64,000 bases of DNA from Opitutaceae bacterium (lineage in GTDB: Bacteria > Verrucomicrobiota > Verrucomicrobiia > Opitutales > Opitutaceae). Positions within the stretch are counted from its first letter, which is position 1, and every line of letters begins with the position of its first letter. The DNA lies in contig JAUYAK010000063.1 in NCBI GenBank assembly GCA_030693515.1, positions 124,001-188,000 of the forward strand. Direction: 5' to 3'. This document shows, piece by piece, positions 44,113-56,604 of the stretch. Position numbers and translations under genes: made by a program. Below the pieces are notes generated by a model, which made no database searches, was not told the DNA's origin, and saw nothing but the letters and a program-made list of their open reading frames with translations.

Positions 44113-45339
44113 TCATTCGTAACGCAGCGCTTCGATCGGATCGAGCGACGCGGCCTTCCAGGCAGGATACAAACCGAAGACGACGCCGATGCCGCCGCAT
44201 ACACCGAGGCCGATGCCCGTCCACAGCCACGGAAAAGTGATCTCCGTATTCATCAGGAAGGCGACGAGGTTGCCGCCACCGACACCAAAGGCCACGCCGA
44301 CGAGACCGCCAATCAGCGAAAGCGCCACTGCCTCCGCGAGAAACTGCATGAGGATGTTGATTTTCTTCGCGCCGATGCTCTTGCGGATGCCGATCTCCTT
44401 GGTGCGCTCGGTAACGCTCACGAGCATGATGTTCATCACGCCCACGCCGGAGGCGAGTAGCGCGATGGCACTGATGATCAGCGCACCGGCGGCCACGATG
44501 TCGGCGATGTTGTTGAACGCCTCGATGAGCGACTCGTTGGAGAAGACCTCGAAGTCGTTGGCATCCTCCGGAGCCAGCCCGCGCACGAGGCGCATCATGC
44601 CGATGGCCCGCTCCTGCGTCTCGGCCAGCTCGGCCTGGCTCGGGGCCTGCACGTTGAGGCCGATGGAGCGCCAACTCCGCCCATAGACCGCGAGGAAGCG
44701 CGTGATCGGCGTCAGCACGATGTTGTCCGGGCTGCCGCCGAAGGCCGTGCCCTTGGAGGCGAGGACACCAACGACCGTGTAGTTCTGCCCGCCGATGCGG
44801 ATGAGTTTCCCGAGCGCGTCCTCGTCGGGAAAAACCTTCTGCACGACCTCGTCGCCGAGCAGGCAAACTGGGCGGCCATGCTCGACATCCTCGGCTCCGA
44901 GATTGCGACCCAGCGCGACATCAAAGTTGAAGGCCGTGACATAATTCTCGTCCGTGCCCCACAAGCGCACGTTGGGATTCGTCTTCCGCTCGCGCACATT
45001 CACGGTAAGGCCGTTGCGGTTGATCTGGAGGTTCACCTTCGCGGCGTCGCCCATCAGCTCCTTGAAACGCTCCGCCTGCGGGGAATTGATGTCGCGGCGA
45101 TTGCGGAACCGCGTCCACGGATCGGAGAAGTTGATCGGGGGGAACTTCGTGATCTGAAAACTGTTCGCGCCGAGGACATTCAGCCCCGTCTCGATCGAAC
45201 TTCTCATGCCGTTGATGAGCGTCATCACGCCAATCACGGAGAAGACGCCGACGGCGATGCCCAGCACGGTCAGGCTGGAACGCAGCTTGTTCGCAGTGAG
45301 CGATGCGAACGCGAGGCGGAAGATTTCCCCAAAGAGCAT
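44113..45339 (-). CDS. MacB-type ABC transporter permease (FtsX-like), second copy
   Basis: This is a 408-residue protein with an N-terminal helix (ASLTANKLRSSLTVLGIAVGVFSVI), a large periplasmic domain (about 45-270, MacB_PCD-like) and three C-terminal helices of the FtsX domain (GVGVMNIMLVSVTERTKEIGIRKS ... FLAEAVALSLIGGLVG). It belongs to the mechanotransmission type rather than a drug-pumping membrane channel. It is the last gene of the operon MFP-ATPase-permease-permease, with 11 bases to the preceding permease. The pairing of two different permeases suggests a heterodimer. Confidence 0.9.
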   Translation of the reverse strand: MLFGEIFRLAFASLTANKLRSSLTVLGIAVGVFSVIGVMTLINGMRSSIETGLNVLGANSFQITKFPPINFSDPWTRFRNRRDINSPQAERFKELMGDAAKVNLQINRNGLTVNVRERKTNPNVRLWGTDENYVTAFNFDVALGRNLGAEDVEHGRPVCLLGDEVVQKVFPDEDALGKLIRIGGQNYTVVGVLASKGTAFGGSPDNIVLTPITRFLAVYGRSWRSIGLNVQAPSQAELAETQERAIGMMRLVRGLAPEDANDFEVFSNESLIEAFNNIADIVAAGALIISAIALLASGVGVMNIMLVSVTERTKEIGIRKSIGAKKINILMQFLAEAVALSLIGGLVGVAFGVGGGNLVAFLMNTEITFPWLWTGIGLGVCGGIGVVFGLYPAWKAASLDPIEALRYE

Positions 45340-45350
45340 GGTCGTGTTTC

Positions 45351-46601
45351 CTATTCGTAGCGCAGCGCCACGACCGGATCGAGCTTACTGGCCTGCCACG
45401 CGGGCGCGAAACCGCTGAAAATCCCCGTGCACACAGAGACGCCGAGGCCGAGCAACACCAGCCCGAGCGAAAACACCAGCGGGAACGCCGGCATGAGCGC
45501 CCCAGCCACGCCGGAGAGCGCCCACGCGGTCGCCAGGCCGCCGAGACCGCCGAGCACGCAGATGCTCACGGCCTCGATGAGGAACTGGAGGAGGATCGTG
45601 CGGCGCCGCGCGCCGAGCGCCTTGCGCGTGCCGATCTCCTTGGTGCGCTCCTTCACGCTCACGTAGGTGATGTTCATGATGCCGATGGCGCCGACGAACA
45701 GCGCCAGCCCCGTGATGAAGAGACCGCCGAGCGCGATCTTGCTTTTGATCGGATCGATCTGCTCGCGGATGACCTGCTGGGTGTTGAGCTCGAAGTCCTC
45801 CTTTTTCTCCGGGCTCAGCCCGCGCACGCGGCGCATGAGGCCGCGTAGTTCGTCCTTCGCCTCCTCCATCCGCGCCACATCCACCTGCACGCGAATCTCG
45901 GGGTTGGCCCAGCGGATGGGAAACGAGCGCGCGAAGGCGTCGATCGGCATGATGACGACCGAATCCCAGCTGAACATCCCGAGGAAGCTGCCCTGCCGCG
46001 CGGCCACGCCGACCACGGTGTATTGCTGGCTGCGGATGCGAATCGTCTGGCCGAGCGCGGATTCGCTGGGGAACAGCGCGTCCGCCACATCGAACCCAAT
46101 CACGACGACGTTACGTGCGCTCCTGCTCTCGATCTCGGTGAAGAAGCGCCCCTCCTTCATGTCAGAGCGCACGATGCGCGCGAGGTCGGCGCTCGTGCCG
46201 AAGATCACCATGTTGCCGATGCGGTATTCGCCCCGGATCACGGTGGCGTTCCACGCGACGTTGGGGACAGCGACTTTGAGCGAACCCTCGGGATGCGTGG
46301 CAATCCAGTCGTTGATGGCGTGGATGTTGTTCACATCGATGTCGCGCCGGTTGCGGAAGGTCCACCAGTCGTCGATCCGGCGCCACGGCCACTTGGTGAC
46401 ATAGACGACGTCGTCGCCGAAGCCCGCGAGGCTGCGCTCGACGCCGGCATCGATGCCGAGGATCGCCGTGCCCATGAGTGTGACGGCCACGATGCCGATG
46501 ATCACGCCGAGCGCGGTGAGCGCGGAGCGCAGCTTGTTCGCACGGATCTGCGAGAACGCGATGCGGAACGCCTCGGTGACCTCGTAGATGAATCTCTTCA
46601 C
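45351..46601 (-). CDS. MacB-type ABC transporter permease (FtsX-like), first copy
   Basis: This is a 416-residue protein of the same architecture as its neighbour: N-terminal helix (FSQIRANKLRSALTALGVIIGIVAVTLM), periplasmic domain and C-terminal FtsX part (IGIMNITYVSVKERTKEIGTRKALGARR). The start is GTG (46601-46599); I see no better ATG. The ATPase gene ends only 19 bases upstream. The two permeases share the 'TVSVKERTKEIG' core but differ in the periplasmic region, which fits non-identical subunits. Confidence 0.9.
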   Translation of the reverse strand: MKRFIYEVTEAFRIAFSQIRANKLRSALTALGVIIGIVAVTLMGTAILGIDAGVERSLAGFGDDVVYVTKWPWRRIDDWWTFRNRRDIDVNNIHAINDWIATHPEGSLKVAVPNVAWNATVIRGEYRIGNMVIFGTSADLARIVRSDMKEGRFFTEIESRSARNVVVIGFDVADALFPSESALGQTIRIRSQQYTVVGVAARQGSFLGMFSWDSVVIMPIDAFARSFPIRWANPEIRVQVDVARMEEAKDELRGLMRRVRGLSPEKKEDFELNTQQVIREQIDPIKSKIALGGLFITGLALFVGAIGIMNITYVSVKERTKEIGTRKALGARRRTILLQFLIEAVSICVLGGLGGLATAWALSGVAGALMPAFPLVFSLGLVLLGLGVSVCTGIFSGFAPAWQASKLDPVVALRYE

Positions 46602-46620
46602 GGCGCGTGCGACAAGCGCG

Positions 46621-47361
46621 TCACTCCACCGCCCGGTCGCTCTCGATCAGGCCGTCGCGGAGGCGGACAATGCGGCGGGCGTGGCGGGCGATGTCTTCCT
46701 CGTGCGTCACCACGATGATCGTGTTGCCCTGGGCGTAGAGCTGCTCGAAGAGGGCCATGATTTCCTCGCCGGTCTTGGAGTCGAGATTGCCGGTCGGCTC
46801 GTCGGCGAGGATGATCGAGGGATCGTTGACGAGGGCGCGCGCGATGGCGACGCGCTGGCGCTGGCCGCCGGAGAGTTCGTTGGGCTTGTGGCCCATGCGC
46901 TCGCCGAGGCCGACGTTCACGAGCGCACGCTGCGCCTTCTCGATGCGCCCGGCCTTGCCGAGGCCGGCGTAGATGAGGGGGAGTTCGACGTTGTGCAGCG
47001 CATCGGAGCGCGGGAGGAGATTGAAGGTCTGGAAGACGAAACCGATCTCGCGGTTGCGGATATCGGCGAGCTCGTCGTCGAGCATGGTGGCGACGTTCTT
47101 GCGGTTGAACTCGTAGCGGCCGGCCGTCGGCGTATCGAGGCAGCCGAGCATGTTCATGAGCGTCGACTTGCCGGAGCCGGAGGGGCCCATGATGGCGAGA
47201 TATTCGTTGCGGTGGATCTTCAGGGTAACCCCGCGGAGCGCATGGATCGTCTCGGCGCCCATCTTGTAGAGTTTGGTCACGTCCTCGATCTCGATGACGA
47301 GGGCGCCGGGCGGACGAGTGACGCGGGGGCCGGCGTGAGCCGTGGCGGAGGGCGGGATCAT
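46621..47361 (-). CDS. ABC transporter ATP-binding protein (MacB/LolD-like)
   Basis: This is a 246-residue protein with Walker [11 protein letters not shown]-loop [10 protein letters not shown], signature [15 protein letters not shown] and Walker [13 protein letters not shown], followed by [11 protein letters not shown]. This is the set of the MacB/LolD subfamily. It powers the two permeases that follow; the adaptor gene precedes it by 5 bases. There are about 20 extra residues at the N-terminus before the domain starts ([15 protein letters not shown]). Confidence 0.94.
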
Positions 47362-47366
47362 CGGGC

Positions 47367-48719
47367 TTATTTTTTCTGGTCCGTCTTGGGCTTCTCGACC
47401 GTGACCGTCATGCCATCCTTGAGGGTGCGGGTGATCACGCTGAAGCTGCCGCTGACGACCTCGTCACCCTCCTTGAGGCCGGACTTGATCTCAAGGTGGG
47501 AAATGTCCTGCACGCCGGTCTCGACCTTGACCATTTTCACCGTGGAGCCGTCGCGCACGAAGACCACGCGGTCGAGGTTGTCGCGGTCGTTGGCCACGGC
47601 CTGGCGCTGCTGCTTCTCGTTTACGGCGGCGACGGAACCCTCGCCTTTGTTCTCGGCGGATTTCTTTTCCCGGTCCTTCGCCTGATCGTCGATGGTCTTG
47701 GCGCCCTGGTTGGACCGCACGGTCACGCTCTGGATCGGGACGGCAATGGCGTTCTCCACGGTCTTCGTTTCAATTTCGGCGTTGGCGCTCATGCTGGGGC
47801 GGAGGGGCACGTCCTTGTCGAGGATACGGATTTTCACGAGGAAGTTGGTGACTTCATCCTGGGTGTTCATGCCGGTCACGCGGGCGGCGGCGCCAATCTC
47901 CTTCACCTCGCCGCGAAACTTGCGGTTGGGCACGGCATCGATGGCGATGCGCGCTTTGTCGCCCACCTTTACGTTGACGATGTCGTTTTCATTAACGTTC
48001 ACGCGGACTTCCATGTTGGCAAGGTCGGCGACGCGCATGACCTCGGCGCCACCATAGGAACCGGTGCCGGCGACGCGCTCGCCGACCTCAGTGGCGAGGG
48101 AGGTGACCTTACCGTCGATGGGGGCGTAGAGAACGGTCTTGGTGAGCTGGTCGCGCGCCTGCGCGAGCGAACCTTCCGTGCGGCGAATCTGGGCCTCGGC
48201 GTTGGCGAGGTTGGCCCGCGCCACCTCAACCCCCGTGCGCGCCGCGGCGATTTCGGATTCGGAAATAAGTTTTTGAGTGAAGAGCTCATCGCTGCGCCCG
48301 AGGTCGTCCTGCGCCTTGCGGAGCTGAGCCTTGCTCTGGAGCGCCGTGGCCTTGGCGGCGGCGAGATTGGCCTCCTGCTGCTCGACCTGCGCCTCGTAGA
48401 AGTCCGGCTTGATGGCGACGAGCAAGTCTCCCTGTTTCACGACCGCGCCCTCGCGGAAGCCCAGCTTGACGATCTCGCCGGAAACCTCCGGCGCGATCTT
48501 CACCTCGACCTCGGGCTGGATTTTTCCGGTGGCGGAGACGATCTGCGTGATCGTCTTCACGATGGCCTTCTCGGTCGTGACCTTCACCTCGGAGGACTGG
48601 CCCTTCCGTCGAAAATAGGCGGCGGTGCCGAGGCCGCCGAGCACGAGCAGGAGAATGAGAATAATCCAAGGCGCCTTGGAGCGCGAGCGCGGAGGCGCGG
48701 AGGCGGAGGAAGCGTTCAT
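47367..48719 (-). CDS. Periplasmic adaptor (MacA/HlyD-type membrane fusion protein)
   Basis: This is a 450-residue protein; the start at ATG 48719 gives a short basic N-terminus followed by one membrane helix ([19 protein letters not shown], about 18-36). Next come a biotinyl-lipoyl-like half ([21 protein letters not shown]), a coiled-coil hairpin ([28 protein letters not shown]) and the second half with [20 protein letters not shown]. It links the inner-membrane ABC pump to an outer-membrane channel; no TolC-like gene is visible in the window. A charged insertion near 370 ([18 protein letters not shown]) is unusual. Confidence 0.92.
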
Positions 48720-49054
48720 GCGGTCAGGATGGGCGTCAGGAAAGGCCGAGGGGAACGAATCGCGTCCGCCGACGCAAGCGGGGCGTCGCCCGCCCAGGGA
48801 AAAAAGGTGTGGCCGGCCCCACAACGAGCCGGCCACACAACACAACTGACTACTACGAACGGACGGGAGACAACACCCGCCCGCCCGTAAGTGAACGCGT
48901 TTGCGACCAACCGCGCCGCGTTCACGACGAACGACGGCCCGGAGAGGGTCGAAACACAGGGAAAAGGAAAAGCGGACACGGCTCCACAACACACCCGCGC
49001 GCGAAAAGTTACAGCGATTCCAGTCGGATGCACCAGGCGCGGGGGTGGACACCC
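48720..49054. other. Gene-free stretch upstream of the pump operon
   Basis: This stretch of 335 bases separates two minus-strand genes. It must hold the promoter for the pump operon on the minus strand. Open frames are compositional only. I see no terminator or clear promoter. Confidence 0.4.
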
Positions 49055-49747
49055 TCACACGCCCTGCTCCGTCAGCGCCGCGAATTCGACGCCCAGGAAG
49101 AGCGCGCGGTCAATCGGCCGACCCTCCAAGGCGCGGGCGAGCGCCAGCGGCTCGCCCGCGCTGCCCCGCGGAAACGAAAGCCGCGCCTCCGGCCGGCCCG
49201 GATCGAAAATCTCCACGCGATCGCCCGACTCGTAAGCGAGCACCGTGTGGCCGATGCGCGCGCCGTCCTCGTTCATGTAATACGAGAGCAGGCGCGGCAT
49301 CTGCAACGGGCGGCCGGCGGCCGCCCGCGCGCGGACCGCAGCGAGGCTCTCGATAAAGCAGCCGTTCTGCAGCGGCCCCGTGGCAACGAGCGGCGCACCG
49401 GCCGTCGACGGCAGCACCCGCCACCGGCGGAAGCCCGGATGGATGTCGCGCAGCAGCGGGGCGAAGTCGGCTTTCTCAGCCACGAGGTTGTTGCGATGCG
49501 TCGAAAAACTCTGCGTGCCATCGGCGTCGGTATAGAACCAGAGGAGGCCGGCGAACTCGAATACGAGCGCATGCAACACCGCCGGGTAGCGCCCACGATC
49601 CGCCGTGTTCTCGACCTCGATCAATTGCGACCAGAAGCCCTCGCCGAGGAGTGCCTGCGCACGGCGGGCATTGTCCAACGGACTCGCCGCGCGCAACAGT
49701 GCGGCCAGGAGCACGAAGCCGAGGAGGAAAACGAAACGTCGCCGCAC
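49055..49747 (-). CDS. Secreted protein with possible cysteine-hydrolase residues
   Basis: This is a 230-residue protein with a signal peptide (MRRRFVFLLGFVLLAALLRAA). I do not recognise the family. It contains NGCFIES (about residue 128), GHTVLAYESGD (about 165) and EIFDPGRP (about 179), spaced as Cys, His and Asp in papain-like or transglutaminase-type hydrolases. The rest has helical and strand alternation. It could be a periplasmic peptidase or an inactive relative. The start is GTG at 49747. No operon partner is evident. Confidence 0.65.
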   Translation of the reverse strand: MRRRFVFLLGFVLLAALLRAASPLDNARRAQALLGEGFWSQLIEVENTADRGRYPAVLHALVFEFAGLLWFYTDADGTQSFSTHRNNLVAEKADFAPLLRDIHPGFRRWRVLPSTAGAPLVATGPLQNGCFIESLAAVRARAAAGRPLQMPRLLSYYMNEDGARIGHTVLAYESGDRVEIFDPGRPEARLSFPRGSAGEPLALARALEGRPIDRALFLGVEFAALTEQGV

Positions 49748-50158: not shown

Positions 50159-50184
50159 GGCCGGAGTTTTCTCCGGCCTTTTTT
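50159..50184 (+). terminator. Rho-independent terminator of rpsR
   Basis: GGCCGGAG (50159-50166), loop TTTT, CTCCGGCC (50171-50178), then six T (50179-50184). It ends just before the tsaC start, which excludes the TTG at 50183 as a start codon for that gene. Confidence 0.93.
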
Positions 50185-50188
50185 GCGC

Positions 50189-51187
50189 ATGGCCCGGACG
50201 CCGCCCGCCCGCACCTACCGCGGCACGGCCCGCAATCTCGCCCGCCTCGCGGCCTGTCTCCGCGCCGGCGATCTCGTGGCGGTGCCCACCGAGACCGTCT
50301 ATGGCCTCGCCGCCCACGCCCTCGATGCCCGCGCTTGCGCCCGGATTTTCCGCGCCAAAGGCCGCCCGGCTTCCGATCCGCTGATCGTGCACCTGCATTC
50401 GGTGCGGCAGCTCGGGCTCGTCTGCCTGCCCAACGCCGCCGCCCACCGCCTCGCGCGCGCCTTCTGGCCGGGGCCGCTCACCCTCGTGCTGCCGAAAACT
50501 CCCGCCGTGCCTGCGATCGTGACCTCAGGGCGCGACAGCGTGGCGGTGCGGGTGCCGCGGCACCCGCTTTTCCGCCGCCTGCTCCGGCTCGCCGGCGTGC
50601 CCCTTGCCGCGCCGAGCGCCAATCCTTTCGGCTACATCAGCCCCACGACGGCGGAACACGTGCGGCAGGGCCTTGGGGGGAAAATTCGCCACATCCTCGA
50701 CGGCGGCCCCGCGTCCATCGGCTTGGAATCAACCATCGTCGATCTGCGCGACCCGAGCCGGCCTGCAGTCTTGCGGCCCGGCGCAATTACGGCGGAGCAG
50801 ATCGCGCGGGTGCTGGGACGGCGCGTCGCCGCGCCGCAGCCCGCGGCGGCGCAACCGGGCGCGCAGGTCGCCCCCGGCCTCCTGGCGCGGCACTACAGCC
50901 CGCGCACACCGCTGGTGCTGCACAAAAAAGTCCCCGCCGCGCTACGTGGTCGCGCGCCGGCAAATGAGGCTTTCCTGCTCCAGCGCCAGCCTCGCGGCGC
51001 CGCGAGCGCGGCTCATGTCTTCTGGCTCGACGCCACCGGTGACCTGCCCGGCGTGGCGCGGCGACTCTTTGCGATGCTACGGCGGCTTGATGCCCAGGGC
51101 TTCGTGCGCATCCACGCGGAGCTCGCCCCGGATCGCGGCCTCGGCCGCGCGATCAATGATCGGCTGCGGCGCGCGGCGGCGCGGTGA
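50189..51187 (+). CDS. tsaC: Threonylcarbamoyl-AMP synthase (Sua5/TsaC)
   Basis: This is a 332-residue protein. It makes threonylcarbamoyl-AMP from Thr, bicarbonate and ATP for the t6A modification of tRNAs. VAVPTETVYGLAAHA, KGRPASDPLIVHL and APSANPFGYISPTTAEHV are family signatures. The C-terminal third carries the Sua5 extension (APGLLARHYSPRTPLVL), so it is the Sua5 long type. The start ATG at 50189 was preferred over TTG at 50183, which lies in the terminator T-run. Confidence 0.94.
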   Translation: MARTPPARTYRGTARNLARLAACLRAGDLVAVPTETVYGLAAHALDARACARIFRAKGRPASDPLIVHLHSVRQLGLVCLPNAAAHRLARAFWPGPLTLVLPKTPAVPAIVTSGRDSVAVRVPRHPLFRRLLRLAGVPLAAPSANPFGYISPTTAEHVRQGLGGKIRHILDGGPASIGLESTIVDLRDPSRPAVLRPGAITAEQIARVLGRRVAAPQPAAAQPGAQVAPGLLARHYSPRTPLVLHKKVPAALRGRAPANEAFLLQRQPRGAASAAHVFWLDATGDLPGVARRLFAMLRRLDAQGFVRIHAELAPDRGLGRAINDRLRRAAAR

Positions 51188-51342: not shown

Positions 51343-53574
51343 TCACTTCTCCTTCTCGAGACCGTCGCCCTTCGCCGGCGCGACGTAGTAGTCCTTGTAG
51401 GATTTGTCGTAATATTGGGCGTAGTAGTAGCCGGAGACGGCGAGATTGAGCCCGTTGAGCACGGCGCCAAAATTGGGCACATTGGCCTCGAGGAGCTTCT
51501 TCGCACCGAACTGCGCGGCCTTCCGGCGCACCTTGTTGAAGTAGATGGTGAAGATGGAACCGTCGAGCAGCGGCAGCACGATGAGCGCATCGCTCACCGC
51601 GGCGAGCGGCGGCGTGTCGACGAACACGCGGTCGTAGCTCTTCCGCAGATCGGAGATCATCACCTCGAAGCCCTTGCTGCTGAGCACCTGCGTCGGGTTT
51701 TTGGCCCGGCCCCCGGAGGGGATCACGTCGAGGTTGGGCAGAACGTTTTTGAGCACGACATCGGCGATCTTCGCTTGGCCGGCGCAGATATCGATCACGC
51801 CCTTGAGATTCTCCACGCGAAACGACTTGTGGATGTTAGGCTTTCTCAGGTCGCAGTCGACGACCACCACGCGCTCGCCGTGCTGCGCAAACGTCAGCGC
51901 GAGGTTCGTGGTCGTGAACGATTTCCCCTCCCCGGGAATCGTGCTGGTGATCAGGATGCACTTCGCGTTCTTGCTCTCATCCTTCAGGCGCAGGCTGGAG
52001 TGCAGCGTGAGGAAGGCTTCGGCCACCTGGCGGTCCTCGTTGGAGGCGACGATCTGGGCCTTCTGCGCGAGGTCGAGGCGCTTGATTTCGGGGATGATGC
52101 CGATGAGCGGGAGGCCAACGACGCCCTCAATGTCGAAGGAACTTTTCACCCGGTCGTCGATGAACGCGACGAAGAACGCAAATGCGAGCCCGAGGCCGAG
52201 GCCGCCCATGACGCCGAGACCGAGATTGAGCGTGAGGTTGGGCGAGATGGGACGATTGGCGGGACTGGCCATCGCCTGATCGACGACACGGGCGTTGCGA
52301 GTCTCGAAGTTGCTGGTCATCGAGGTCTCGCGCGAGCGGGCCGCGATGCTCTGCAGGATCAAATCCTGCGTGCGAAAGTCGCGGTCGATCTGGTTGTATT
52401 CCACGGCAGCGGCGTCGACGGCGAGCGACTCGGCCTTGAGACGATCGAGTTCCTGCACGCGCTGGGCGTGGGCCTTGGCGAGCGCCTCGTAGTCGGCCTC
52501 GATTTGTGAGGCGACGGAATTGATGGTGCGCTCAAGCTCGCGTTGGGTCTGCGCATGGGCGTTGCGCGCCTCAATCATGGTGGGGTGCTTGTCGCGGTAG
52601 CGCTCGCTGAGCTTGGCGATTTGGATTTTTTGGATGGCAGTCTGCTGGCTGAGCTCGGCGATGAGCTGGTGCGAGGAAATGAAGGGCAGGCCGGTGAGTT
52701 CGGCCCCGCGGGCGCGGTAGTCGCGGATTTGGTTCACGCGGGTCTCGGCGTTTTGCAGCGCGATCTGCGAGCGCTGGACCTCGAGGTTGATGGCCTTGAG
52801 GGATTCGCTGACGATGTCCTTGCGCTGGTCGAGCGAGACCGTGCGGTTCTTCTCCTTGTAGCGCTGGAGACTGAGGGCGAGTTCATCGACCTTCTTGCGC
52901 TGATCATCGACCGTTGTCTGCAGCTCCTCGACGGCCTTGCTCTGGGTCTCGGCACGGATGCGCTGGTTGTGGTTGAGGTATTCCTCGACGAAGAGGTTCG
53001 CGACCTTGGCGGCGACAAACCGATCCGGGTGCTGGTAAGAGACGGCGACCACGAGGGTGAGGCGCTGCGGAACCACGCGGCGGTTGCGCGCGATGATGTC
53101 GGTGACAAAGGCGGCGTCAGCGGTGGATTTTTCGTAGGGCGCGAGGAAGGCCCGGAGATCCTCGCCCACGAGGCGTTTCGCGACGCGGTCGATGATGGTC
53201 GCGCTCTCGATGATCTTGATCTGAGTGTTAAGGTCTTCCTGCGAGCGGATGTCATTGTCCATGACCTGCTGCACCGCCATGATCTGCGGGTCGCGCCGCA
53301 AGATCTGCACGGTCGCGGCGGACTGGTAGACCTTGGTCTCGCTGAGCGTGTAAACGAGCACGCTCGAAACGATCACCAGGAAGACAACGACGATATACCA
53401 GATGCGCTCGCGGAGGATGAGCAGGTAGTCCTGCAGCGTGCGATGGGGCTGGCCGCGGCCTTCAGCATCGCCGTAGCCATAACCGCCATAGCCGTAACCA
53501 TAGCCGGGGGGGCCGCCGTAATTGTAGCCGTAGCCACCCTCGGGGGGCGGCCGGTGGCCTCGTTCGTTGGGCAT
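51343..53574 (-). CDS. Wzc-like polysaccharide co-polymerase/tyrosine autokinase
   Basis: This is a 743-residue protein. Wzz-type N-terminal region with TM1 (YIVVVFLVIVSSVLVYTL), a long coiled coil (about 200-420), TM2 (LTLNLGLGVMGGLGLGLAFAFFVAF) and the BY-kinase domain: Walker A TSTIPGEGKS, A' VVVDCDLRKPN and B VFVDTPP. The C-terminus has a Tyr cluster (GYYYAQYYDKSYKDYY, eight Tyr), the autophosphorylation site. The cytoplasmic N-terminus is also Tyr-rich: eight Tyr in a Gly-Tyr repeat between residues 15 and 34. It controls chain length and export of exopolysaccharide with the Wza-like protein encoded 1 base upstream. Confidence 0.93.
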   Translation of the reverse strand: MPNERGHRPPPEGGYGYNYGGPPGYGYGYGGYGYGDAEGRGQPHRTLQDYLLILRERIWYIVVVFLVIVSSVLVYTLSETKVYQSAATVQILRRDPQIMAVQQVMDNDIRSQEDLNTQIKIIESATIIDRVAKRLVGEDLRAFLAPYEKSTADAAFVTDIIARNRRVVPQRLTLVVAVSYQHPDRFVAAKVANLFVEEYLNHNQRIRAETQSKAVEELQTTVDDQRKKVDELALSLQRYKEKNRTVSLDQRKDIVSESLKAINLEVQRSQIALQNAETRVNQIRDYRARGAELTGLPFISSHQLIAELSQQTAIQKIQIAKLSERYRDKHPTMIEARNAHAQTQRELERTINSVASQIEADYEALAKAHAQRVQELDRLKAESLAVDAAAVEYNQIDRDFRTQDLILQSIAARSRETSMTSNFETRNARVVDQAMASPANRPISPNLTLNLGLGVMGGLGLGLAFAFFVAFIDDRVKSSFDIEGVVGLPLIGIIPEIKRLDLAQKAQIVASNEDRQVAEAFLTLHSSLRLKDESKNAKCILITSTIPGEGKSFTTTNLALTFAQHGERVVVVDCDLRKPNIHKSFRVENLKGVIDICAGQAKIADVVLKNVLPNLDVIPSGGRAKNPTQVLSSKGFEVMISDLRKSYDRVFVDTPPLAAVSDALIVLPLLDGSIFTIYFNKVRRKAAQFGAKKLLEANVPNFGAVLNGLNLAVSGYYYAQYYDKSYKDYYVAPAKGDGLEKEK

Positions 53575-53575
53575 G

Positions 53576-54199
53576 TCAGAAGGTGCGCTCGGGAACCACG
53601 ATCACGTCGCCCTTTTCGAGCAGGGGCGCGCCGGTGCCGCCACGCTTCACCAGCTCATCGGCGTTGATTTCCTGCGTGCTCGTCTCACCGCCCGGCTTGC
53701 GACGCGTGAGTTTGACCCGCTTCAGATCAGCGATGCGGCTGAAGCCGCCGGCGTTGGCGATGGCTTCGAGCAGGTCGAGGGCGCGCTCGCCGGGAAAAAG
53801 CACCCGTCCGGCATTGTTGACCGCGCCCATCACGCTCACGCTGCGCTCCGCGTATTTCACCACTGTCACGCTGACCTGCGGGTTGACAAGATAGTCCTTG
53901 TTGTAGAGGTCGCGGACGAGTTCCTCGACTTGGCGCACGGATTTTCCCTTTACGCTGACCGTCTTAATCAGCGGCAGCACGATGGTGTGCTCCTGCGAGA
54001 CGCTGACCTCGCCCAGACGATTGATGTCCTCCTCCTGGAAGACCTGCACGCGCAGGACGTCCTGCGGCTGCAGCACATAGTCGGAAACCGCCGCCGGTGC
54101 GGCGTCGGCAACCGGCACAAGAGCCCTCAGGCCGAGCGCCAAAACGAGGCCAAGGGAAACCCCGGCGCAATTCACCCGGGCGGTGCGAAGATGCGGCAC
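53576..54199 (-). CDS. Polysaccharide export protein (Wza/BexD-like, SLBB)
   Basis: This is a 207-residue protein; the GTG start (54199) was chosen since it follows the previous gene by 7 bases and begins a signal peptide (ARVNCAGVSLGLVLALGLRA). It has a Poly_export domain (DYVLQPQDVLRVQVFQEED) and an SLBB domain (VSVMGAVNNAGRVLFPGERALDLLEAIANAGG), at the usual short length. There is no lipobox; the Cys at the signal peptide start (NCAG) is not in a lipobox context I trust. It forms the outer-membrane channel for exopolysaccharide. The kinase gene follows. Confidence 0.88.
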   Translation of the reverse strand: MPHLRTARVNCAGVSLGLVLALGLRALVPVADAAPAAVSDYVLQPQDVLRVQVFQEEDINRLGEVSVSQEHTIVLPLIKTVSVKGKSVRQVEELVRDLYNKDYLVNPQVSVTVVKYAERSVSVMGAVNNAGRVLFPGERALDLLEAIANAGGFSRIADLKRVKLTRRKPGGETSTQEINADELVKRGGTGAPLLEKGDVIVVPERTF

Positions 54200-54206
54200 G
54201 CGTGGA

Positions 54207-55331
54207 TCAGTAACGGAAGTCCGCGGAGACGCTGAAGACATTGTTCTTAAACTCGGACAGCCGCGAGGAGTTGTAGTCCCGATGCACGTAGCCGCCGATG
54301 ATGCGCACCTGAGGGCTCACCACATAGGCCGCGTTGAGTTGAAATTCGTAGTAGTCGTCCGTCCGCACTCCGTAATCGATCGCCCGCCAGAAGAGGCCCG
54401 CGCCCACGCTCCACTCGGCGGCGATCCGGGCGATGACTTGTGCGCGCAGGCTCTTGTTCTTGAGCTGCTGGCCCTGCGGGCTGATGCCAAAGTCGTTGCG
54501 TGCACCGAGTTCAAGCGTGGTCTTGGGCGTCAGCTCGTAGTTGAAATCGGCCTCAAGGCCGAGCTGGTTGTCGCTGCCGGCGCGTTCCACCGAGCGGCGG
54601 TTGAGGCCAACCGCGAGGCGCCCCTTGAGCTTGGGGGAAAACTCTCCGCGCGCGCCGATGTTCAGGAAATGCTCGGTCGAATCGCGGCCGAGCGCGAGGC
54701 GCACATCGCGGTAGCGATAGCCCACGCTGATGTCGGTCTTCGCCGTCCACTTGTAGAAGGCATCGAGCGGCACCGTGAGATAATCGGCATCGGTGAAGCC
54801 GGCCCGCTTGTAGTGATCGCGGCCGAAAGCGACGCCAGCCGCCACCGACGTGAGCTGCGAAAGCTCAATCTCAGTGTCAGCGCTCGTCTCAAACAAATCG
54901 CGCCGCACGAGCCCGCCGGCAGTGCCACCCACAAGCGTGGGGCGCACGTCAAAAGTGTTTTGATTCAGCTCCCGGAAGCTGGCGTTGAAACGCAGCTTCG
55001 TCTTGCCGTCGTCAAAGCTCGTGGCAAACGCGCCCGAGAACAGGTTGGTGTTGAGACGGCTGTTGTCCGAATATCTGCTGAAGTGGTCCTGCAACGTGAG
55101 CTTGCTTTTGAGCTGCGCGTTTTTGCCATAAGACACCTCCACGCCCGGCGTGAGATCGAAGATCAGATCGCTCTCAGCCTTGGGGCCGAGAAAGATGTTG
55201 TCGTCGGCGCGAATGCCCGCGCTGCCCGTCAAAAAGAGTTCCGCGCCGCTGCCGATGGCCAGAAACGGACCGGCATGGACGCTGGCACCCCATGCGAGGG
55301 ACAGCGAAGCAAGTCGGAGGAGATTTTTCAT
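54207..55331 (-). CDS. Outer-membrane beta-barrel of the exopolysaccharide export operon
   Basis: This is a 374-residue protein with a signal peptide (MKNLLRLASLSLAWGASVHA). The mature part is rich in alternating residues and Tyr/Arg pairs (DISVGYRYRDVRLAL; KTTLELGARNDFG) and ends SVSADFRY, an aromatic C-terminus as for barrels. It resembles the putative beta-barrel family BBP2 found next to exopolysaccharide genes. It is first in the operon barrel-Wza-Wzc. It may dock the Wza-like channel or serve as exit porin; this is an inference. Confidence 0.8.
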   Translation of the reverse strand: MKNLLRLASLSLAWGASVHAGPFLAIGSGAELFLTGSAGIRADDNIFLGPKAESDLIFDLTPGVEVSYGKNAQLKSKLTLQDHFSRYSDNSRLNTNLFSGAFATSFDDGKTKLRFNASFRELNQNTFDVRPTLVGGTAGGLVRRDLFETSADTEIELSQLTSVAAGVAFGRDHYKRAGFTDADYLTVPLDAFYKWTAKTDISVGYRYRDVRLALGRDSTEHFLNIGARGEFSPKLKGRLAVGLNRRSVERAGSDNQLGLEADFNYELTPKTTLELGARNDFGISPQGQQLKNKSLRAQVIARIAAEWSVGAGLFWRAIDYGVRTDDYYEFQLNAAYVVSPQVRIIGGYVHRDYNSSRLSEFKNNVFSVSADFRY

Positions 55332-55515
55332 GGGCAGGTAAGGACGAATCGAATGCGGACGGTTGCGACCGAGCCAAGGAGACAGACCACGAACGGCACA
55401 CAGACAGCGGATTGGCGAAAAATCGCCAACAAAATGCAAACGGCATGGTGATCGCGTCGGCAAGGATTTTCCCGGCCACAACCCTGCTCCCATTGCCACG
55501 GCGACCGACTGGGGC

Positions 55516-56604
55516 TCAGACCACCACCGCAAGCTCGCGCAGGAGCCGCTCATTCTGCTCCGCCGTTCCGACCGTCACCCGCACCCAGCCGGGCAGGCCG
55601 TAGGATTTCACCGGTCGCACGATGACGCCCCGCCGCTGGAGCGCCTCAAACACCCGCCCGCCATCGCCCACCTCGATCAGCATGAAGTTGGCGACGCTCG
55701 GCACGAAATTCCACCCCCGCTCCCGGCACCCCTGCTCGATCTGGCGCAGCCCGGCGCGATTGGCCGTGGCGCAATGCGTGGCAAACGCGTGGTCGTCCAG
55801 CGCCGCGATGGCGGCAGCCTGGGCGATGGCGTTCACGTTGAAGGGCTGCCGCAGGCGGTTGAGCAGCGCCGCCAGCATGGGACTCCCGTAGCCATAGCCG
55901 ACGCGCAGCGAGGCGAGCCCGTAGATTTTGGAAAAGGTCCGCAGGCAAACGACCTTGCGACCCTCCCGGATGAGGGGCCGCAGGTCGGGCGGATGCTCGA
56001 CATACTCCGCATAAGCCTCGTCGATCACCGCGATGACATGGTCGGGCAGCGCGCGCACAAAGGCCAGCAGCTCCGCCTCGGTGTTGGCCGTGCCCGTGGG
56101 ATTGTTGGGCGTGCAGACATAGACAAGCTTGGTCCGGGGTGTGATCGCCGCCGCGATTGCGGGGAGATCGTGGCGCCAATCGCGCAGCGGGACCTCCACG
56201 GCCTGGGCCCCGAAGAGAAGCGTCACGAGCTTGTAGACCACAAACGCCGGCGCGCCCATCACGACCTCGTCGCCCGCGCCCACAAACGCGTGCCCGAGCA
56301 ACTCGATGATTTCATTGGAGCCGTTGCCCACGACAAACTGGTCCGCCTCGAGGCCGTGCCGCCCCGCGAGCTTCCGCCGCAGCTCGAAGCACCCGCCGTC
56401 CGGATAAAGCTCCCCGTGCTCCAGCGCGGCCTTCGCCGCCGCCAGCGCGCGCGGCGAGGGGCCAAACGGATTCTCATTCGAGGCCAGCTTGATGATCCCC
56501 GCGGGATCGAGCCCCAGCTCGCGAGCGACATACTCGATCGGCTTGCCCGGCTCATAGACGGGCTGCGTGAGCACGGCGGGTTTGGCGAGCGACTCGAAAT
56601 TCAT
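55516..56604 (-). CDS. hisC: Histidinol-phosphate aminotransferase
   Basis: This is a 362-residue protein of usual length. It transfers the amino group from Glu to imidazole-acetol phosphate in His synthesis. LASNENPFGPSPRA, GNGSNEIIELL, PNNPTGTANTEAE, DEAYAEYV and RTFSKIYGLASLRVGYG (with the PLP-binding Lys) are fold-type I and HisC signatures. It is separate from other his genes and near polysaccharide genes; that neighbourhood carries no obvious meaning. The start ATG at 56604 begins MNFESLAKPAVL. Confidence 0.93.
   Translation of the reverse strand: MNFESLAKPAVLTQPVYEPGKPIEYVARELGLDPAGIIKLASNENPFGPSPRALAAAKAALEHGELYPDGGCFELRRKLAGRHGLEADQFVVGNGSNEIIELLGHAFVGAGDEVVMGAPAFVVYKLVTLLFGAQAVEVPLRDWRHDLPAIAAAITPRTKLVYVCTPNNPTGTANTEAELLAFVRALPDHVIAVIDEAYAEYVEHPPDLRPLIREGRKVVCLRTFSKIYGLASLRVGYGYGSPMLAALLNRLRQPFNVNAIAQAAAIAALDDHAFATHCATANRAGLRQIEQGCRERGWNFVPSVANFMLIEVGDGGRVFEALQRRGVIVRPVKSYGLPGWVRVTVGTAEQNERLLRELAVVV

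Follow-up and report, generated by a model that had tools for sequence, protein, structure and literature searches.

The Wzc-type tyrosine autokinase encoded in a 64,000-nucleotide stretch of Opitutaceae DNA (the window, by which we mean that whole stretch) carries, in addition to a C-terminal Tyr cluster, a Gly-Tyr-rich N-terminal tail that is retained in nearly all of its sampled orthologues. When conservation, residue identity, and comparison with E. coli Wzc are taken together, the most likely of the readings considered is that this tail is a second substrate tail of the kinase, acting on the helix (α1) that leads into the first membrane span. We put the probability of this reading at roughly 0.45, somewhat short of even.

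A Wzc-type kinase with tyrosine clusters near both ends

An earlier note, made from the DNA alone, had read the gene at 51343-53574 as a tyrosine autokinase with eight Tyr near each end, and translation of the open reading frame confirms this. It had suggested that the N-terminal cluster might be a second phosphorylation platform or a self-associating tail, readings taken up below. On the sequence evidence, the product is a Wzc-type polysaccharide co-polymerase with its BY-kinase domain in the same single chain. The gene, its parts, and its two upstream neighbors are as follows.

54207..55553, minus strand: outer-membrane beta-barrel gene (BBP2_2, Pfam), upstream of the Wza-like gene
53576..54241, minus strand: Wza-like export protein (Poly_export and SLBB, Pfam), directly upstream of wzc
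51343..53574, minus strand: wzc-type polysaccharide co-polymerase/BY-kinase, 743 residues, open reading frame with ATG start
53446..53574, minus strand: N-terminal tail, residues 1-43, predicted disordered, composition conserved, cytoplasmic by homology to Wzc
53473..53532, minus strand: Gly-Tyr segment, residues 15-34, eight Tyr (translation)
53404..53445, minus strand: helix α1 and its approach, residues 44-57 (conservation and AlphaFold2)
53341..53403, minus strand: transmembrane helix 1 (TM1), residues 58-78 (helix by AlphaFold2)
52171..52392, minus strand: GNVR domain, residues 395-468 (Pfam 27.1 bits, slightly below the cut-off of 27.7; E 4.1e-06)
51919..51933, minus strand: Walker A, GEGKS, residues 548-552, with K551 aligned to position 540 of E. 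coli Wzc
51838..51867, minus strand: Walker A', VVVDCDLRKP, residues 570-579 (motif read)
51607..51627, minus strand: Walker B, VFVDTPP, residues 650-656 (motif read)
51385..51429, minus strand: C-terminal Tyr cluster YYYAQYYDKSYKDYY, residues 716-730, eight Tyr (translation and alignment)

The N-side of the protein matches the Wzz (chain length determinant) domain of Pfam at 31.2 bits against a cut-off of 25.5, AAA_31 is likewise above its cut-off, and the NCBIfam model of the BY-kinase domain, TIGR01007, scores 149.1 bits (cut-off 108.05); the equivalog model for E. coli Wzc, PRK11519, gives 135.4 bits, far under its curated cut-off of 1068. By profile search the nearest solved relatives are CapA/CapB, VpsO, and Wzc. 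E. coli Wzc (7nhr) is also the top Foldseek match of an AlphaFold2 model (E 1.2e-23), with a whole-chain TM of only 0.36/0.40 and a model pTM of 0.38, and kinase-domain structures match the model with a TMt of up to 0.86. Walker A' and B are intact in all 111 orthologues described below and Walker A in 110; the remaining one (L009, G023:C27) has GEGKY rather than GEGKS/T and is otherwise intact.

The tail lies ahead of the first membrane helix, as the earlier note had it, and is followed by α1 and TM1. Its Tyr are at positions 15, 17, 19, 25, 27, 29, 32, and 34, and those of the C-terminal cluster at 716-718, 721, 722, 726, 729, and 730. In the AlphaFold2 model, built on a 22-sequence alignment, residues 1-45 have a pLDDT below 50, helices follow at 47-56 and 58-78, and pLDDT is low again across most of residues 709-743 at the C-terminal end. 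Helix α1 is nearly invariant, with R55 in 111, E56 in 110, and D49 in 103 of the 111 orthologues. In E. coli Wzc, α1 (residues 17-30, before TM1) is described as cytoplasmic and packed on α23, where the C-terminal Tyr tail has its base (PMC8285477), and by homology the tail would therefore be cytoplasmic and lie beside the kinase ring.

A wrong start codon in the window was considered and rejected: no start codon follows M1 until the GTG at codon 67, within TM1, and the tail is therefore necessarily translated with the rest of the protein. In 26 of the 111 orthologues a further start codon does occur downstream of the first tail Tyr and ahead of α1. Tyr makes up 3.4% of the remainder of the orthologous proteins (2699/78598), and at that frequency the binomial probability that a set stretch of 20 residues holds eight Tyr is about 2e-7, the stretch having been picked post hoc. 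The Tyr richness of the tail exceeds chance, and its conservation in orthologues carries the main weight.

The Wza-like gene ends one base from the wzc start, and the order of barrel, Wza-like protein, and Wzc recurs by size and position in four relatives (L216, L229, L236, and L238), in L236 also by domains. Because these partners look stable, it could be speculated that the tail is an arm that binds one of them, or another cytoplasmic protein such as a glycosyltransferase, a phosphatase, or a polymerase loop. We consider this improbable, as no fixed motif beyond Gly-Tyr was found in the tails and no tyrosine phosphatase family was matched among the scanned neighbor genes of the window and L236, although a partner could be encoded elsewhere; the genome holds five matches to the LMW phosphatase family (PF01451), all off the window's contig. 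A comparable gene order of barrel, export protein, and tyrosine autokinase is seen in Pseudoalteromonas sp. THAF3 (L242), which differs in having an adjoining CpsB/CapC phosphatase gene and only 2 Tyr in the 25 residues of its kinase N-end.

Other neighbors were recorded in passing. A HAD-family hydrolase gene lies upstream of the cassette in the window, and one neighbor gene in L236 matches Glycos_transf_3, which we take to be a phosphoribosyltransferase family. A Sua5/YrdC gene is convergent to wzc in the window (50183-51187) and likewise in Cerasicoccus frondis (L238:8179-9180), and in L236 (8479-9495) and L229 (8141-9166) the gene convergent to the cassette is BacA (undecaprenyl-diphosphatase). 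Two MacB-type permeases and an HlyD-type adaptor stand in a row at 44113-49058 of the window, on the minus strand.

Conservation and distribution of the tail

The earlier note had named conservation of the Gly-Tyr tail among Opitutaceae Wzc homologues as a check on its significance, with absence from close homologues as one refuting outcome. At least four tail Tyr are present in 110 of the 111 sampled orthologues, which represent 16 family groups and 54 genera (median 7, range 3-17), and the objection fails because the tail is kept beyond Opitutaceae, in 16 family groups of the order. By the same threshold the tail is present in 0 of 14 sister paralogues and in 6 of 37 non-orthologues (L075, L076, L099, L100, L105, and L110), or 6 of 43 when six loci dropped for short N-ends are added. 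The tail-less Opitutaceae paralogues (L078-L090 and L115) come from the same family of genomes, are Wzc-type, and have 7-8 C-tail Tyr; they differ in forming a separate clade and in N-ends that are 18-28 residues long and hold 0-2 Tyr.

These counts rest on whole-genome searches of close relatives, class, order, and phylum, which gave 157 loci (L001-L157), 148 of them with a usable N-end. The 40 genomes fetched from the order search were picked to cover a range of families and to include late-starting matches, which might point to a lost tail. Three loci were dropped as partial or without a match (L002, L003, and L024) and six more (L106, L108, L109, L111, L113, and L116) for having 8-21 residues before the alignment start and no start codon at least 15 residues upstream; the Gly-Tyr run was not found in the N-ends of these six. 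The 148 were grouped by hand into 111 orthologues, 26 other kinases (the 14 sister paralogues, 11 of other groups, and L077), 7 of family f56, of which L099 and L100 have at least four tail Tyr, and 4 set apart as tail-bearing (L075, L076, L105, and L110, with 5-7 Tyr). A count of 0 of 26 tailed among the other kinases is partly so by construction, since tail-bearers had been set apart, and the fair count is therefore 6 of 37.

Among 80 loci from named records, many of them from the same contigs or species as the unnamed set, 76 are complete and 75 have at least four tail Tyr, including Coraliomargarita sp. SDUM461004 (L236) and C. frondis (L238); L220 has 2. Of 273 genomes from the order, 153 match the kinase at E 1e-100, some through a paralogue alone, and the tailed gene is, judged by these matches, absent from part of the order's genomes. 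A further locus, L184 (JALHNN010000278.1), comes from a metagenome-assembled genome titled Sulfuritalea sp.; its Wzc is Opitutaceae-like (62-63% identity) and bears a Gly-Tyr tail, and the contig is probably mis-binned.

A quick tree was computed from 90 of the 148 kinase cores with the tails excluded; it contains weak and long branches, and in it the orthologues form one supported group adjoining the tail-less Opitutaceae paralogues. Exceptions within the orthologue clade are L026 (3 tail Tyr) and L077 (1 tail Tyr), and L076 also falls inside it; the tailed L075, L105, L110, and part of f56 are placed elsewhere. The history of the tail on this 90-row tree takes 6 or 7 changes according to the threshold used, and the tail may either have been gained more than once or have been lost in the paralogues.

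Two diverged kinases deserve separate mention. L077 (G013:C459) is a diverged duplicate whose genome also encodes a normal tailed kinase (L014), and with 1 Tyr in its N-tail and 4 in its C-tail it looks as if both Tyr tails had decayed together. L076 (G033:C289) has NCDFR at Walker A', where others have DxDxR, and is possibly weak or inactive as a kinase, yet it has 5 tail Tyr.

Tyrosine identity, spacing, and drift

Across the orthologues, Tyr:Phe:Trp counts are 906:10:0 in the N-tail, 825:15:0 in the C-tail, and 2699:2738:296 for the remainder of the protein, and by these counts both tails favor Tyr over aromatics in general. As the C-tail is a known type of substrate and has the same bias, this was counted in favor of a kinase-substrate role for the N-tail. 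Alignment of 19 close pairs, some of them non-independent, never set a tail Tyr against Phe or Trp, whereas this happened to Tyr elsewhere in the protein in 16 of the 19; in the same pairs, 12 tail Tyr faced other residues (7 pairs) and 11 faced gaps (6 pairs). Tail length differs among close relatives, and tail Tyr are mostly, not wholly, retained.

Spacing is also distinctive. N-tails contain Y[^Y]Y in 94 and YGY in 82 of 111 cases, with adjacent YY depleted (71 observed vs 229 in shuffles) and Y-x-Y enriched (283 vs 220), two tallies that are not independent because the sequences are related. Orthologue C-tails, counted without L135, which meets a contig end, have YYY in 87, YGY in 2, and Y[^Y]Y in 11 of 110. 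The last figure compares with 24 of 26 in the hand-grouped tail-less kinases, an association between tail presence and a C-tail lacking Y[^Y]Y that is not significant (4 independent pairs). When YYY is scored as YxY, 90 of the 110 C-tails are positive and the contrast between N-tail and C-tail weakens.

The number of Tyr is more variable in the N-tail (variance 9.1, range 3-17) than in the C-tail (variance 1.3, range 4-10), which tempers the view of the tail as a phosphorylation platform. Asp or Glu lies within three residues of 201 of 906 N-tail Tyr, compared with 430 of 828 C-tail Tyr. With kinship ignored, the Tyr numbers of the two tails have a Spearman coefficient of -0.41. The f19 loci (L070-L074 and L149-L157) have only 4-6 C-tail Tyr and 6-17 N-tail Tyr, unlike family f1, in which the ranges are 7-8 and 3-12.

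These features bear on a different role, in which low-complexity Gly-Tyr tails under the ring would self-associate or bind neighboring rings through Tyr and so cluster export machines, phosphorylation only tuning the process. Low-complexity domains of the FUS type prefer Tyr to Phe and share with the window tail a richness in Tyr and Gly and a disorder that is here predicted. In the FUS low-complexity domain, Tyr residues contribute to phase separation (PMC5927716). Such a role would fit a predicted disordered tail with few charges near its Tyr, whose composition holds steady as its length and order change (Tyr number tracks tail length, Spearman 0.79), and it would account for composition without position better than a substrate tail does. 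We hold it to be a serious rival, though less probable than the substrate tail, as the near exclusion of Phe and Trp would be stricter than a general aromatic sticker needs and the tail rides on kinases with intact motifs, for which stickers have no need; both roles may hold.

That the tail could be a slippage-made Gly-Tyr repeat drifting without a role draws on the length changes between close relatives and on repeat-like DNA, in which Tandem Repeats Finder gives weak scores of 31, 48, and 61 with about 2 copies each. Codons are mixed across the orthologues (TAC 474, TAT 432, and all four Gly codons), and the tail is therefore not a fresh, uniform DNA repeat. Mixed codons, conservation, and the exclusion of Phe and Trp disfavor a slippage artefact, and neutral drift is further opposed by persistence of the tail across the 54 genera, its lack in all 14 sister paralogues, and the similar tail on L075, L105, L110, and part of f56, elsewhere on the tree. 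We regard drift without a role as very improbable, although slippage may feed changes in tail length. A scan of the 6.65 Mb genome for the YGYGY DNA pattern gives one hit, at the tail, against two for a reversed control pattern; the single hit therefore says little beyond the repeat not being a genome-wide habit.

A putative second substrate tail on the relay helix

The window kinase is like E. coli Wzc (K30 and K-12; PCP-2a) in domain order, two transmembrane helices, α1, Walker A, A', and B, and a C-terminal Tyr cluster. It differs in the length preceding α1, 43-46 residues here against 16 in E. coli K30 Wzc (PMC8285477). In PMC11986026, control of Wzc is ascribed to one C-terminal Tyr cluster, YxY is named the ratchet motif, and α1 passes the signal of C-tail phosphorylation on to the membrane. 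Two E. coli residues, E675 of the Tyr pocket and K701 of the D28-K701 pair, align here with A686 and A712, respectively; both positions are variable among orthologues, and D28 falls outside the profile alignment. As the equivalents of E675 and K701 are not kept, the E. coli ratchet is not transferable unchanged.

A wider comparison used 18 BY-kinases hand-picked from 440 plasmid records (16 from Pseudomonadota, one from Bacteroidota, and one from a cyanobacterium). An N-terminal Tyr cluster was found in 0 of the 18, the Bradyrhizobium protein having 4 Tyr spread across 210 residues. Their last 45 residues contain YGY in 11 and Y[^Y]Y in 12 of the 18, some with long YGYGYG runs. In Novosphingobium sp. 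ES2-1 (L253), Sphingomonas sp. FARSPH (L259), and Bacteroides finegoldii (L250), the C-terminal YGYGYG run resembles the window N-tail and the N-end has no Tyr cluster, whereas the window kinase has its YGY run at the N-end and a C-tail of the YYYAQYYDKSYKDYY kind. The Opitutales N-tail thus looks like a classical BY-kinase C-tail placed at the opposite end, a simple-sequence likeness that can arise independently but that we regard as the most telling lead. No account of a Tyr-rich N-tail on a BY-kinase was found in the literature among the matches listed, in which subscription papers are mostly not represented.

The second-substrate-tail reading can then be outlined as follows. The disordered Gly-Tyr tail would hang in the cytoplasm from α1, a helix that in the E. 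coli structures lies against the foot of the C-terminal Tyr cluster, and would present its Y-x-Y motifs to active sites in the kinase ring, where it might be phosphorylated in cis or on a neighboring subunit. Alongside the C-tail, its charge would then act on α1, and through α1 would influence how stable the octamer is and how long the polymer grows. We favor this reading because of the conservation of the tail, its use of Tyr and not Phe or Trp, the enrichment of YxY, the likeness to (YG)n C-tails, the intact kinase motifs, and the relay role and near-invariance of α1. Against it stand the variable number of Tyr, the incomplete retention of individual tail Tyr, the few acidic neighbors, and the loss of the E675 and K701 equivalents. 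It could be speculated further, and more tentatively, that two Tyr tails pass through one ring of active sites as a two-ended phospho-ratchet, in which the N-tail acts on α1 to set membrane and periplasmic conformation directly and the (YG)n substrate tail is in effect now at the opposite terminus.

If the second-substrate-tail reading is true, a second Tyr tail on the relay helix would give a widespread machine for polysaccharide export one more point of control. The tailed kinases would also offer a natural experiment on the position, number, and spacing of Tyr, for which the tail-less paralogues in the same genomes could serve as built-in controls.
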